From: Singulisphaera sp. GP187
Lineage (GTDB): Bacteria; Planctomycetota; Planctomycetia; Isosphaerales; Isosphaeraceae
Reading direction: 5' to 3'
DNA length: 64,000 bases
Assembly (NCBI RefSeq): GCF_900129635.1
Contig: NZ_FSRB01000002.1
Span: 2,756,727-2,820,726 of the forward strand
A program made the position numbers and the translations under genes. Positions 6,796 through 11,985 of the stretch are shown here, one piece after another. Below the pieces are notes generated by a model, which did no database searches, was not told the origin of the DNA, and saw only the letters and a list, made by a program, of their open reading frames with translations. Each line of letters begins with the position of its first letter. The first letter of the stretch is position 1.

Positions 6796-7428
6796 TTACT
6801 TCGTCGTTTTTCCATCGGCGTGAGCGAGTTGAGGTTGGAACGGTTGGCCCAGCATCGCCTTCCAGCGCAGCTTTTGCGCGTCAGTCAGCGTCGCGAGCGT
6901 CCGCTGGGCCAATTCGCGATCGAAATGGCTCGCGTTGGAATCCTGACTTCGGCGACGGATCGACTCGTCGACGGCTTTCTTCAGGGTGGTCAACTGCTCG
7001 GGCGTCAATTCCAGGAATTCCGCCACCGCCGGCCGGCTGATCAGCGCGGACGGCCCTTCCCACTGGAGGTCGATCTGGACGATCCGCTTCCGTTGTGTTT
7101 CGGAGAGCCTGTTCTCAAACCAGAGGCGCTGCTCCTCGTCGATCGCGCGACGCTCAGTGATCGCCTTCTCACCTTTGAGGCCGCGTAGTCCGTTTGCCTT
7201 GACGTAGAGTTCACGAATCGCCGTCTCGGCGTCATCCACCTGAGTACGACTCAGTTGGAGGTCGGCCTGGACATCGTGGCGACTCAGCAAGAGCAGTGGC
7301 GCCGTTCGAACCCCGAGGCGGCTGTCGGGGAGCGACGTGGTGCCCTCAGCGCCCGCGCAGCAAGGCGAATAGGCGAGTGCCATGCTCCATAGAAGCGCAG
7401 ACGCAACGGCTGTCGTTCCCTGACGCAT
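6796..7428 (-). CDS. secreted protein, paralogue of the neighbouring 389-residue protein
   Basis: A 210-residue protein with an N-terminal signal peptide (MRQGTTAVASALLWSM, then a small-residue cleavage region ending in AGA). The mature part is helical and charged. It shares with the upstream-transcribed protein the stretch RIVQIDLQWEGPSALISRP (there RIVQIQLQQEGPMAVTKPE), followed by a helix pair of the type LTPEQL. This gives two tandem paralogues of a secreted helical family of unknown function, loosely reminiscent of Spy/CpxP-like periplasmic helical proteins but not clearly homologous. The ATG at 7428 follows GGGAGGG. The 219-base gap to its neighbour holds that gene's terminator, so it probably has its own promoter. 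Confidence 0.6.
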   Translation of the reverse strand: MRQGTTAVASALLWSMALAYSPCCAGAEGTTSLPDSRLGVRTAPLLLLSRHDVQADLQLSRTQVDDAETAIRELYVKANGLRGLKGEKAITERRAIDEEQRLWFENRLSETQRKRIVQIDLQWEGPSALISRPAVAEFLELTPEQLTTLKKAVDESIRRRSQDSNASHFDRELAQRTLATLTDAQKLRWKAMLGQPFQPQLAHADGKTTK

Positions 7429-7569
7429 GAGCGGTATCCCTCCCGCAAACCCCGATCGATCCTTCGCGACCTTCGCGTCGCCGTTATACGAGGATCGAGC
7501 CAAGGGGGGAAGATCAGACTCGAGCCTGACGGATCGCCCGAATGTTCCGGCAATTGCATAGTCAGGCGC

Positions 7570-7611
7570 AAACAAAGAAGCCCGACCTCCGATCGGAGAA
7601 GGTCGGGCTTC
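7570..7611 (-). terminator. rho-independent-type terminator of the 389-residue secreted protein gene
   Basis: On the minus strand an 11-base stem (GAAGCCCGACC / GGTCGGGCTTC, loop 13 bases) is followed directly by TTTGTTT. It lies 36 bases past the stop of the gene ending at 7648, in the right orientation. Confidence 0.7.
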
Positions 7612-7647
7612 CAGGTCGATGACGTTGCGCTCCGAGCCAAGTTGGAC

Positions 7648-8817
7648 TCAGGCGTTCCGTTTGGACTTGGCCGAAGTCTTCTTTTTTGAGGAAGAACCCT
7701 TCTTGCTGTTGGCGGCTTCCTTGGCGGCTTCGGCCTCCTCTTTCTTTTTCGCCTCGGCGGCGACGGGATCGTAGTTGCGATCCAGCTTCGCCAGATCGAA
7801 CGGGGGGCCTTGCATCTTCTGGAAGTTTTGGTGCTGCTTCTTGGAGAGCGTCTTGCCAATCATGGCGATCGTCTGATCCTGAAGTTGCGCACTCTGCTTC
7901 GTCATGGCCTCACGACTCTTATCCATCTGGGCTTTGAATTGAGGATCCTGCTGGATCTTGGCCTGGAAGGCTCGAAAGTCGAATCTTCCATCCGCGGACT
8001 GGAAGCCCGCCATCTGTTCTCGCCCCTGGTTGAACAGGTCGGTCCGCGCCGTATCCCGCTCCTCGACGATCATCGCGATTTGCTCGATCTGCGTCGGGCT
8101 CATGTTCAACTTCGTCTGCAACTCGGGCTTGGTGACCGCCATCGGGCCTTCTTGTTGCAGCTGGATCTGGACGATCCGCTCGCGCTGGGGCTTGGTCAAA
8201 ATCTTGGCGAGCGCAGCGTCGGTATCCGCCTGCTGCCGCTGGAACTGTGCCCGAAAGTCCGTACCACCGCCGTTGGTTCCGGGGCCATTGCCATTGTTCC
8301 CGCCACGCGGGCCTTGAGCGGCTCCGCCGTTGGGATCGGCGCTTTTCGCAACGGCACCATTCTTGGTCGCATCGCCATTTTTAGTCGCATCACCATTCTT
8401 GGTGGAAGCACCACGTGTGCGACCGGTTCGACCTTTGGTCGAGGCAGCGTCCGTCTTCGTGGCATCGGTGCTGGGCGGGTTCGCGCCCACACCATTCGCG
8501 GCGGGATTGTTTCCTCCAGCGCGGCGCTGTTCGAAGGCCTTGCGCTGGGCATCGCGTTGTGCCTGAATCTCGTCGGAGAGTGCCTTGACCTGCTCCTTCT
8601 GGGAGTCGGTCAATTTGAGATCTTCTTGCACATATTTATTGGAGGCCAAAGACAACGGCGACGAAATCCGATTTCGACCACCAAAGCCACCACCAGGACC
8701 GCCTCGGGCGCCCCGACCTCCACCACCACCCGGAGCCTGAGCCTGGCTCACGGACTGCGCGAGTAGGACGGCAATGACCAGACCCATGCTGAGCAGGAAC
8801 GCGCGAATTCGGGACAT
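7648..8817 (-). CDS. secreted helical protein with Gly-rich and TKNGDA repeat linkers
   Basis: A 389-residue protein with a signal peptide (hydrophobic core LLSMGLVIAVLLAQSV, cleavage after SQAQA). A Gly/Arg-rich segment follows at about 30-50, then helices with DLKLTDSQKEQVKAL, a low-complexity Asn/Thr/Gly/Lys linker at about 100-185, helices shared with the gene at 6796, and a Lys/Glu/Ala-rich basic tail ending SKKKTSAKSKRNA. The linker contains three near copies of the hexapeptide TKNGDA encoded by an 18-base tandem repeat (about 8345-8405). The ATG at 8817 follows AGGAGG at 6 bases. Function is unknown; the repeated L-T-x-x-Q patterns recall periplasmic helical proteins that sense or bind partners. 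Confidence 0.6.
   Translation of the reverse strand: MSRIRAFLLSMGLVIAVLLAQSVSQAQAPGGGGGRGARGGPGGGFGGRNRISSPLSLASNKYVQEDLKLTDSQKEQVKALSDEIQAQRDAQRKAFEQRRAGGNNPAANGVGANPPSTDATKTDAASTKGRTGRTRGASTKNGDATKNGDATKNGAVAKSADPNGGAAQGPRGGNNGNGPGTNGGGTDFRAQFQRQQADTDAALAKILTKPQRERIVQIQLQQEGPMAVTKPELQTKLNMSPTQIEQIAMIVEERDTARTDLFNQGREQMAGFQSADGRFDFRAFQAKIQQDPQFKAQMDKSREAMTKQSAQLQDQTIAMIGKTLSKKQHQNFQKMQGPPFDLAKLDRNYDPVAAEAKKKEEAEAAKEAANSKKGSSSKKKTSAKSKRNA
8345..8405 (-). repeat. 18-base tandem repeat encoding TKNGDA units
   Basis: About three units of an 18-base repeat (core ACCAAGAATGGTGATGCG on the coding strand, with synonymous differences) sit within the linker of the secreted protein. Such in-frame repeats can expand or contract by slippage. 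Confidence 0.6.
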
Positions 8818-9110: not shown

Positions 9111-9863
9111 TCAGGCGCGTTGCTGCACCAGCCAGACGGCGAGGGTCGCCGCCGCGCCAATCGATGCCAGCCGGACCATCCAGCGGTAGGAGGTAAAGCG
9201 GCGGCGGACGTTGCGTTCAAGGTCGTCCGCGGCCTCCGCGGCGAGGGAGTGGCGTTGGAGGCTCGCCAGCGTGTTCATCCCCACGAGATAGACAAGCCAG
9301 AGGATCAAGAAGCCGACCCCCTGTTCGAGCCACGCGTGCCAAGGGATCGGCGGCAAGTGTGGCGCCCATTTCGAAGGCGTTGTCAGCGGTCGATCGGATT
9401 CGTAGACCACGAGCCGCGCGGCCTGGCTCGTCCGATCCATCCCATCGGTCGCGCGGAGCAGGAGTGCAGCCGGTTCCGGCGTCCCGACCCGAGGCGTGCC
9501 GCGAACCTGAGCGGTGGCAGGGTCAAACGTCAGGCCGTCGGGAAGCTTACCGTCAATCGCCCAACGAATCGGTCCACTGCCCCCCGTCGCGGCCAGGGCG
9601 ACAACATAGGGACGGCCCGCGATCGCCTCGGGGAGCGTTTCCGGTGTGGCGATGGCGAGTGGAATCGGGTCGTCCTTATCCTCACCCCCCTCGGACGAGG
9701 GGAGGTCAATGGCCTTGGGCAAAAGCGCCATGATCACCATGGTCAGCAGTAATATGAACAGAAGTGCGCCGGTGAGCTTGGTGACGACGACCGCGACGAA
9801 CGAATCTTCGCCCGAACCGCCGAACTCCATGCCGCCATGGCCGCCTCGCCGTGATCGACGCAT
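9111..9863 (-). CDS. membrane protein with one N-terminal helix, Ig-like (He_PIG) domain and two C-terminal helices
   Basis: A 250-residue protein. Residues about 22-49 form one long hydrophobic helix (SFVAVVVTKLTGALLFILLL). Residues 75-155 resemble a putative Ig domain, with the turn GKLPDGLTFDPATAQVRGTP typical of He_PIG modules. Two more hydrophobic helices lie at about 181-199 and 229-247. It is transcribed after a MotA/TolQ/ExbB-like gene, so it could be the partner subunit, in the place of MotB/ExbD. Unlike those partners it has no aspartate within the helix; E19 and D20 flank it and K29 lies inside. Strong AAGGAGG precedes the ATG at 9863. The role is inferred. Confidence 0.6.
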   Translation of the reverse strand: MRRSRRGGHGGMEFGGSGEDSFVAVVVTKLTGALLFILLLTMVIMALLPKAIDLPSSEGGEDKDDPIPLAIATPETLPEAIAGRPYVVALAATGGSGPIRWAIDGKLPDGLTFDPATAQVRGTPRVGTPEPAALLLRATDGMDRTSQAARLVVYESDRPLTTPSKWAPHLPPIPWHAWLEQGVGFLILWLVYLVGMNTLASLQRHSLAAEAADDLERNVRRRFTSYRWMVRLASIGAAATLAVWLVQQRA

Positions 9864-10042
9864 GTCTCCTCCTTCAAGCGGCCCGGAACGTGTCGTGCCC
9901 CTGATCCTGAACCTAATCCTAACCGACGGCCCGCTCGCGAATGATCCGTCGAATCAGGCGCAAGGGCCGTTTCCTTGCCAGTACTCAAACGTCCACGAGA
10001 ATGAAGCTGCCGACCTTCTGGAAAAACTCAACCCTTGCTCAT

Positions 10043-11317
10043 TTATGCGGCATCATCACTTCTCACAGAAAGCCCCTTACTGCTGGAATCGAACATCTTC
10101 TTGACGATGTTGCGATAGAGGGCGTTGCCTTGTTCCATGCTGACGTTCAGCAGGTCGATCGCGTCCTTAAGGCTGTTCAAGGTCCGCGCCAGTTGATCTT
10201 GCGTGCTCCGGCTCGAGCGCTCATAGGCGAGGGCCCACGAGTTCGACATGGCCTCGATCGCCGCGCAGGTGCGGTCGATCCCGCGCTTGATCTCATCGAG
10301 TTGGTCGGCCGAGCCCGCCTGGTCCGTGAGCGTGGTCTCGATTCGCCCGAGGGCGGCAACGCCCCGACGGAGCGTGTCGCCGGCCGCGCCCAAGGCCTCG
10401 AGCTCGGCCCCGATCCGGCCGATCGACTCGGCCCCGCGCTGGAACCCAGACATCGAATTGGGCAAGTGGTCGATCGAGCGGGCGAACTGTTCGATCTGGG
10501 TTCCGAGCCGCTCGCTCCACCGCGCGGCCAATGAGTCCGACCCGCCCGCGGTCTGCGGTTCGGCGGCTCCCACGCGTGGTAGCACGAACTCGACGACCCA
10601 ACGATCGACGCGTGCGAGCAGGTCTTCGGATCGGCGGAAGACCAGGGTCTGGACGAGCATCAAGGCCGCGCTCAGGAAGAGGGCGAGCAACGTGCTGTCG
10701 AATGCGATCTGAAGGGCCGAGGTCACCCCGGTCAGATTGTTCATGAAGCCGTCGAGGTCCTTGACCATCGGCAAGACCTTGCTGATGTTCATCAAGGCCT
10801 TTGAGATGCCCTCGACGGTCCCGATGAACCCGATCACCGGCAAGAGATAGAGAATGTAGCGTGTGAGCGTGAACCGACCCGCGGACTGCTCTTGATCGAG
10901 GGCCGAGGCCTCGCGATTCAACTCCATCATCTGCGAGACGGAAGGCGTGCCGGTCTCTTCGAGGTAAGTCGTGAGCTGCCGCACTCGGGTTGGCAGGATC
11001 CTCGCTTCCTCGAGCGGGATCGCGGTCGATGTCGCTCCCGCTTCGTCGCTCGAGCCGCACGCGACCTTGACGGTGTGGAGGAGCGCGGGAACTTCGTCGA
11101 ACGCCTTCTCGTTGGCCCAGAGCTTGGCCAGCTCGCGGGTCAGGGCAATCACTGCCCAAAAGTAGATCGCGGTTCCAACGTACTGTTCCCAACCCCGCTC
11201 AAACATGAGCGTTGGGTTGAAAATCATCAGGCCGATCGGGAAAGCCAAGGCCAGACCCAGCATCGCAAGCGTGCCGGAGTAAGACATCTTGGAGGTGCCG
11301 TGAGCTCCGCTCGGCAT
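10043..11317 (-). CDS. MotA/TolQ/ExbB proton-channel-like membrane protein with long C-terminal coil
   Basis: A 424-residue protein with four hydrophobic segments at about 17-33, 46-62, 152-172 and 205-226, the topology of MotA. The third helix has PVIGFIGTVEGISKAL, and the fourth region ALQIAFDSTLLALFLSA; these match the two conserved blocks of the MotA/TolQ/ExbB domain, which forms the pentameric part of ion-driven motors. Residues 250-410 form a helical, probably coiled-coil tail, longer than in ExbB and reminiscent of ZorA. I chose the ATG at 11317 because AGGAAGGGG precedes it at 7 bases. Its partner is probably the next gene (ends 9111). What the complex drives is unknown. Confidence 0.7.
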   Translation of the reverse strand: MPSGAHGTSKMSYSGTLAMLGLALAFPIGLMIFNPTLMFERGWEQYVGTAIYFWAVIALTRELAKLWANEKAFDEVPALLHTVKVACGSSDEAGATSTAIPLEEARILPTRVRQLTTYLEETGTPSVSQMMELNREASALDQEQSAGRFTLTRYILYLLPVIGFIGTVEGISKALMNISKVLPMVKDLDGFMNNLTGVTSALQIAFDSTLLALFLSAALMLVQTLVFRRSEDLLARVDRWVVEFVLPRVGAAEPQTAGGSDSLAARWSERLGTQIEQFARSIDHLPNSMSGFQRGAESIGRIGAELEALGAAGDTLRRGVAALGRIETTLTDQAGSADQLDEIKRGIDRTCAAIEAMSNSWALAYERSSRSTQDQLARTLNSLKDAIDLLNVSMEQGNALYRNIVKKMFDSSSKGLSVRSDDAA

Positions 11318-11442: not shown

Positions 11443-11985
11443 TCAAAGGGCCTGGTCCTGCGTCAGCTCGCTCGTTGTCTCCCGGTCGTTCGAAACGTCC
11501 GAGCCCTCCGAGCCTGGGGACGCAACAAACCGGAAATTGCAGCACGACGCCCCTTCCATGAGGGTTTGCGTGCGTGAGAGGTGAATCGTGGAGTTGAAGC
11601 CTTCGACGAGCGAAAAATCGCGCTGGCAGGAGAGGCTCGAGCCGAGGTCGGCCAGGCCCAAGGTGTGGTACATTTCGGCGTAGCGGCAGCGTGTCACGTT
11701 GAACGAGAGCCGTTCCTCGGTCTGCTCGAGCATTTCCAGCTCGAGCGCTCCCCCCGCCCGCCAGCGGTCGAGGCTTCCCGAGAACGCTTCGAGAGTCGCC
11801 GCGCCCAATTGCGCCGCGAGGTCGGCACCGCTCTGACGGGCCAGTTCGGAGATGACGCGGCGAAGCAGGGCCAGGGTTTTCTCCTCGCCGAGCTCGTCGC
11901 GTACCGCATGGATGATGGGGCCAACAATTCGCGCTTCGATTTCGCGTTGTTGAAGGAGAGTGAGCGGGTGGGGGTCGGATGACAT
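11443..11985 (-). CDS. L-2-amino-thiazoline-4-carboxylic acid hydrolase family protein
   Basis: A 180-residue soluble protein. The C-terminal half contains NVTRCRYAEMYHTLGLADLG followed by CQRDFSLVEGFN and a final GASCCNFRF, the cysteine-containing pattern of the ATC-hydrolase family (PF14196), named after the Pseudomonas enzyme that opens 2-aminothiazoline-4-carboxylate during L-cysteine formation. Most family members have not been tested, and many sit in unrelated contexts, so the reaction is uncertain. It precedes the MotA-like gene by 125 bases on the same strand and may be co-transcribed with it. Confidence 0.7.
   Translation of the reverse strand: MSSDPHPLTLLQQREIEARIVGPIIHAVRDELGEEKTLALLRRVISELARQSGADLAAQLGAATLEAFSGSLDRWRAGGALELEMLEQTEERLSFNVTRCRYAEMYHTLGLADLGSSLSCQRDFSLVEGFNSTIHLSRTQTLMEGASCCNFRFVASPGSEGSDVSNDRETTSELTQDQAL

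Follow-up and report, generated by a model that had tools for sequence, protein, structure and literature searches.

The window, a 64,000-nucleotide stretch of the Singulisphaera sp. GP187 genome (contig NZ_FSRB01000002.1, positions 2,756,727 to 2,820,726), carries two neighbouring genes on its minus strand. The first in reading order, P1 (10043..11317, minus strand), encodes a MotA/TolQ/ExbB-type ring protein of 424 amino acids, for which the ATG at 11317 is the best start. After 179 bases it is followed by P2 (9111..9863, minus strand), which encodes the proposed axle, a protein of 250 amino acids made up of an N-terminal helix (helix 1), an Ig domain and two C-terminal helices. The P2 gene starts with the ATG at 9863, with GGAGGAG ahead of it.

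The assignment of P1 was based on Pfam, AlphaFold2, Foldseek and conservation within the family. A match to Pfam MotA_ExbB (PF01618) was obtained with an E-value of 5e-7 and 29.9 bits (curated cut-off 22.9), and AlphaFold2 modelled four long helices, predicted to be of membrane type (residues 10-33, 43-88, 127-184 and 188-249), followed by a helical tail to residue 413 (pLDDT 64). The preliminary description of this DNA, made from the letters alone, had called P1 a ring protein of this type with a long tail, and both statements held. Foldseek searches with this modest model returned TolQ, MotA, ExbB, PomA and ZorA as almost all of the top matches, with probabilities up to 1.00, an E-value of only 0.018 and TM-scores of 0.3-0.5. 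The tail (residues 250-413; 10079..10570, minus strand), delimited by the AlphaFold2 model and conservation, would be cytoplasmic; it ends in the conserved segment LNVSMEQGN.LYRNIVKKMF, and a weak match of P1 to the ZorA profile (E-value 2.6e-4) reached into it. A profile search with P1 gave nothing except coiled-coil noise from the tail, and a phmmer search of PDB chains gave no matches.

For P2, the Pfam search identified He_PIG alone (E-value 2e-7, above the curated cut-off) and no OmpA-like peptidoglycan-binding domain, which is a feature of MotB. The AlphaFold2 model (pLDDT 81) showed a helix at residues 19-51, Ig strands at 86-151 and helices at 175-209 and 213-249, in keeping with the layout proposed beforehand, in which a helix at the N terminus is accompanied by a He_PIG Ig domain and a further pair of helices. 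Helix 1 (residues 19-51; 9711..9809, minus strand) is the proposed trans-pore axle helix, on the basis of conservation and hhalign. The Ig-like domain (residues 69-155; 9399..9659, minus strand), recognized by Pfam and AlphaFold2 and by Foldseek, where bacterial and cadherin-like Ig domains ranked top, is presumably periplasmic. The second helix of the model (residues 175-209; 9237..9341, minus strand) is hydrophobic, and the third (residues 213-249; 9117..9227, minus strand) has an Arg-rich start. P2 did not match the ExbD/TolR profile (PF02472) up to an E-value of 1, and a search for ExbD in the window's genome found ExbD proteins elsewhere, P2 not being among them. PHROGs and NCBIfam supplied no useful names.

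The preliminary description had made the pairing depend on the two genes occurring together and in a conserved order in related genomes. Among 45 sampled genomes of the Isosphaeraceae, the planctomycete family to which the window's genome belongs, 43 contained both genes, two contained neither and none contained only one. This supports the pairing, and the pair is nearly universal in the family. The two genomes that have neither (G015 and G371) are incomplete drafts, and since the genes adjoin in most relatives, a single assembly gap could have removed both. P1 lies directly before P2 in 28 of the 36 genomes with both genes that were compared for gene order; in the other eight they are separated by 2-16 kb, are encoded on opposite strands or lie on different contigs. 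In Singulisphaera acidiphila, a member of the same genus, P1 and P2 have between them about 2.3 kb that the window lacks (L127:7405-9752). The neighbours identified in the window were an ATC_hydrolase-family protein upstream of the pair (11443-11985), a response regulator, and LTXXQ (Spy/CpxP-like) proteins downstream (6796-8817). The ATC_hydrolase and LTXXQ genes recur beside the pair in many Isosphaeraceae genomes, with parts of the block ATC_hydrolase, P1, P2, LTXXQ, LTXXQ being found again; a functional link of P1-P2 to envelope stress is possible from these neighbours.

Conservation within P2 was found to be very uneven. Across 36 homologues, with identities over the whole protein down to about 41%, helix 1 (DSFVAVVVTKLTGALLFIL) was near-invariant, residues 17-38 being identical in nearly all of them. 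Over this segment 7-16 of the 22 codons differ silently from those of the window, and because so many silent changes have left the amino acids untouched, the identity is not due to chance. Asp20 (9804..9806, minus strand), Ala24 (9792..9794, minus strand) and Lys29 (9777..9779, minus strand) were each present in 36/36 homologues, and none of the 36 has an acid inside the helix. It had been stated beforehand that helix 1 lacks an internal aspartate, with D20 flanking it and K29 within it; this was confirmed in all 36 homologues, D20 lying at the start of the helix. In P1, inner helices 3 and 4, T167 and T209 included, were likewise nearly invariant. Since the surfaces under the strongest constraint in the two proteins, P2 helix 1 and P1 helices 3 and 4, are those that touch in solved motors, the natural reading is that helix 1 would serve as an axle.

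P1-like rings of 25-30% identity are present across the class, and the gene that follows them encodes an axle. Two types of axle recur. The A-type carries 'SLFPFL[SA]', with the Asp replaced by Ser, Ala or Thr, and some members ('SLFSFQD') retain it; in the B-type, '[DE]S(F/L)LD...N..G', the Asp, Asn and Gly are invariant. Behind many Asp-less A-type axles a B-type gene follows directly, and in G042 and G046 it is found elsewhere in the genome, so that these systems have an Asp in one of two axles. Widespread TolQ-like rings of other planctomycetes (L044-L062 and L133-L161) are followed by an Asp-less 'SLFPFL[SA]' axle and often then by an Asp-bearing 'DS(F/L)LD...N..G' axle; these would often be heterologous axle pairs with the proton-binding residue in only one member.

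When P2 helix 1 was aligned by hhalign with the B-type axle profile, an E-value of 1.1e-4 and a probability of 56% were obtained, while control helices from P1 and P2 gave 0.01 or worse. By this profile comparison, helix 1 is homologous to the planctomycete B-type axle helix, and the likeness to MotB/ExbD noted beforehand reflects more than a similar appearance. In the hhalign register, D20 is matched to the leading acid of the DSFLD/LELLLD motif, A24 to the proton-binding Asp, K29 to the conserved Asn and G32 to the Gly; the D...N..G of the B-type thus appears in P2 as A...K..G, with one residue inserted. If the glycines are anchored instead, V25 lies opposite the axle Asp. Note that the register is not unique, since any of A24, V25, T28 and K29 may be placed opposite the Asp. 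In the A24 or V25 register, judged on these alignments, the axle Asp has been lost, and Lys29 lies roughly one turn above its place. The idea that Lys29 stands exactly at the place of MotB Asp32 was rejected, as the alignments favour Ala24 or Val25; its sole argument was the spacing to a proline, as compared with MotB. The planctomycete B-type systems share with P1-P2 a homologous ring and axle helix and a ring gene directly ahead of the axle gene, and they differ in usually having two unlike axles, one with Asp, and a coiled coil. P2, in contrast, is a single axle without Asp, with Lys for Asn and an Ig domain for the coiled coil.

Outside the Isosphaeraceae, P2 was found in none of the other genomes of the class that were sampled, the helix search jumping from 7e-17 to 0.01. 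A search with whole P2 returned Ig-domain matches only, apart from one protein of another planctomycete family (G113; L162:6353-8601). At that locus the gene after a P1-like ring encodes a protein that begins with a helix, continues with He_PIG Ig domains and closes with another helix; unlike P2, it has an Asp in its first helix (in SIFIDPLFG; SIFIDPLFGAFGAFLFIF), three Ig domains and a single C-terminal helix, and its significant alignment with P2 covers the Ig part only. In the phylogenetic tree, the Lys29 family formed a single, long-branched clade (100/100), and the L162 ring fell weakly on the same side (90/92, long branch). If this placement holds, an Ig axle with Asp would have come first.

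It could be that no ring/axle complex is formed at all, P2 being an envelope protein of the same operon and P1 using another axle, and the eight of 36 genomes in which the genes lie apart are what such an arrangement would allow. However, helix 1 is homologous to axles, the genes co-occur perfectly, and a search of ten Isosphaeraceae genomes, most of them in few contigs, found no axle of the A- or B-type encoded elsewhere, while the same searches gave matches at 1e-14 to 1e-19 in four control genomes. The window's genome contains seven other MotA_ExbB rings, four of which adjoin ExbD proteins, so that its ExbD-type axles have rings of their own; an independent P2 is accordingly the least probable of the explanations considered here. 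The same searches led us to reject a heterodimer of P2 with an Asp-bearing axle encoded in trans. Two further rings of the window's genome (L118, C4, and L119, C3) are followed by short one-helix proteins with an Asp in the helix and the motif 'LFDL', which may resemble DUF2149 proteins. P1 and P2 very probably do form a ring/axle complex, and given such a complex, ion coupling would be an even bet.

The residues of P1 that could take part in coupling were located by mapping onto TolQ and ExbB. Thr167, in the GTVEG block (10817..10819, minus strand), corresponds through its GTV motif to TolQ T145 and ExbB T148, and Thr209 (10691..10693, minus strand) to TolQ T178 and ExbB T181, which are proton-path threonines (PMC12965293). 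Both were invariant, each in 42/42 homologues, and on this mapping both proton-path threonines of the ring are kept in P1. Glu169 (10811..10813, minus strand), the counterpart of TolQ Trp147, was present in 42/42 Isosphaeraceae sequences and in none of the listed relatives, which have M, I, L, V, Q, R or W; TolQ Trp147 faces outward and touches TolA on the ring exterior (PMC12965293). Asp207, in AFDST (10697..10699, minus strand), was also invariant, and D is found as well in most relatives that have an Asp-less A-type axle, with E, G, H or N in some others. It maps to TolQ Ile176, two residues from T178, and because of this distance to T209 it would lie off the pore face; no charged residue of the P1 ring maps to the pore face by homology. 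Two other rings (L123 in G053 and L167 in G287) read GTVRG, with an Arg in the place of Glu169. Behind the L167 ring come directly a non-axle protein and then a vWA-type axle with Asp, and behind the L123 ring no axle was recognized.

One interpretation of the acids in the ring is that the charges of the motor have been inverted, with Glu169 and/or Asp207 carrying the ion and Lys29 of the axle acting as the counter-charge. A precedent exists in GldLM, which serves gliding and type IX secretion and resembles the proposed pair as a 5:2 motor that couples without an axle acid; GldL is not known to be a MotA_ExbB protein. There, Glu49 of the GldL ring is required (PMC8986121), and simulations pair the ring Glu with a central Arg of GldM (PMC12239597). 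The restriction of Glu169 to the Lys29 family and the invariance of Asp207 fit such a scheme. However, the ring acid of GldL faces the axle, whereas both P1 acids map away from the pore, and for this reason charge inversion was ranked last of the readings in which a complex is formed and is considered unlikely. In addition, Asp207 also occurs in relatives that lack Lys29, and the co-occurrence of Glu169 and Lys29 amounts to one evolutionary event, since it is confined to a single clade. A direct Glu169-Lys29 salt bridge, suggested by the fact that both are exclusive to the Isosphaeraceae, was set aside as unsupported, given the contact of the TolQ Trp147 counterpart with TolA outside the ring, and is a weak rival only.

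Two further systems were compared. In the TPH-vWA motors described in 2025, a TolQ-like ring is paired tightly with a fusion of a trans-pore helix and a vWA domain, and the Asp is present (PMC12204202). The likeness to P1-P2 lies in a TolQ-like ring with just one partner, in which an adhesion-type fold is joined to a trans-pore helix, and the difference in that fold, He_PIG Ig in P2 rather than vWA, and in the conserved Asp that P2 lacks. ZorAB of Zorya likewise combines a MotA-type ring that has a long cytoplasmic tail with a small axle, but ZorB carries a critical Asp (PMC11890865), and the P1-P2 locus is family-wide rather than mobile. A role in Zorya defence was rejected, as P2 has no Asp and the identified neighbours include no Zorya genes (ZorC/D, ZorE). 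In the largely open-access literature covered, no account was found of an axle with an Ig domain or of one that lacks Asp and bears Lys.

The reading preferred here, at a probability of roughly 0.42, is a 5:2-type ring/axle pair in which ion coupling has most likely been kept but moved. P1 would form a TolQ/MotA-type ring, expected to be a pentamer, and two copies of P2 would insert helix 1 into its pore as the axle. In this axle Ala24 takes the place of the proton-binding Asp, and Lys29 that of the conserved Asn, which lies one turn higher. The Ig domain would lie in the periplasm, and the C-terminal helices would re-enter the membrane and hold the axle there in place of peptidoglycan. Against the axle anchored in this way, the ring and its long tail would rotate. 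Coupling would be taken over by Asp20 (a turn nearer the cytoplasm), by Lys29 (a turn nearer the periplasm) or by both, together with T167 and T209. This relocation is consistent with the perfect co-occurrence, the conserved order with LTXXQ proteins often behind, the concentration of constraint on P2 helix 1 and P1 helices 3 and 4, the hhalign result, the retained threonines, the failure to find any A- or B-type axle elsewhere in the ten genomes, and GldLM as a case of coupling that needs no acid in the axle. Asp20, moreover, matches an acid kept in B-type axles. Note, however, that Asp20 could also belong to a helix N-cap box (S17-x-x-D20) and so be explained as a helix cap, that the alignment allows several registers, and that no charged residue of the ring maps to the pore face. 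TolR no longer functions once its Asp is lost (PMC12583513), and in MotB D32 is critical (cited in PMC9389320). A Lys without a counter-acid in a ring of threonines would also be an odd ion carrier; that it might itself be the ion-binding group, cycling between neutral and +1 with the threonine ring in a base-type ion-driven rotary motor, seems improbable.

Alternatively, the ring and axle may conduct no ions, with Lys29 plugging the pore by its positive charge so that no protons leak through it. The complex would then be a fixed anchor of the envelope, or it would sense tension and signal through the P1 tail. This is a tentative but substantial possibility: the Asp is lost without an acid mapping to the pore face of the ring or an Asp axle found in trans in the ten genomes searched, Lys29 is invariant, and P2 has two helices that tie it back to the membrane and no peptidoglycan-binding domain. 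Near-invariant proton-path threonines and ring helices 3 and 4 are not an obvious requirement of a pore without ion flow, however, and the extreme constraint on P2 helix 1 also speaks against it.

In MotB, TolR, ExbD and ZorB, the axle Asp is regarded as the heart of the motor. P1-P2 is a natural experiment on this residue, in which the proton path of the ring appears to be kept and the axle Asp replaced, with no substitute axle in the genomes searched, and with it Ig domains would join the list of axle cargo. The pair would show either that one scaffold allows ion coupling to change its position or that a motor ring can turn into a non-motor part of the envelope.
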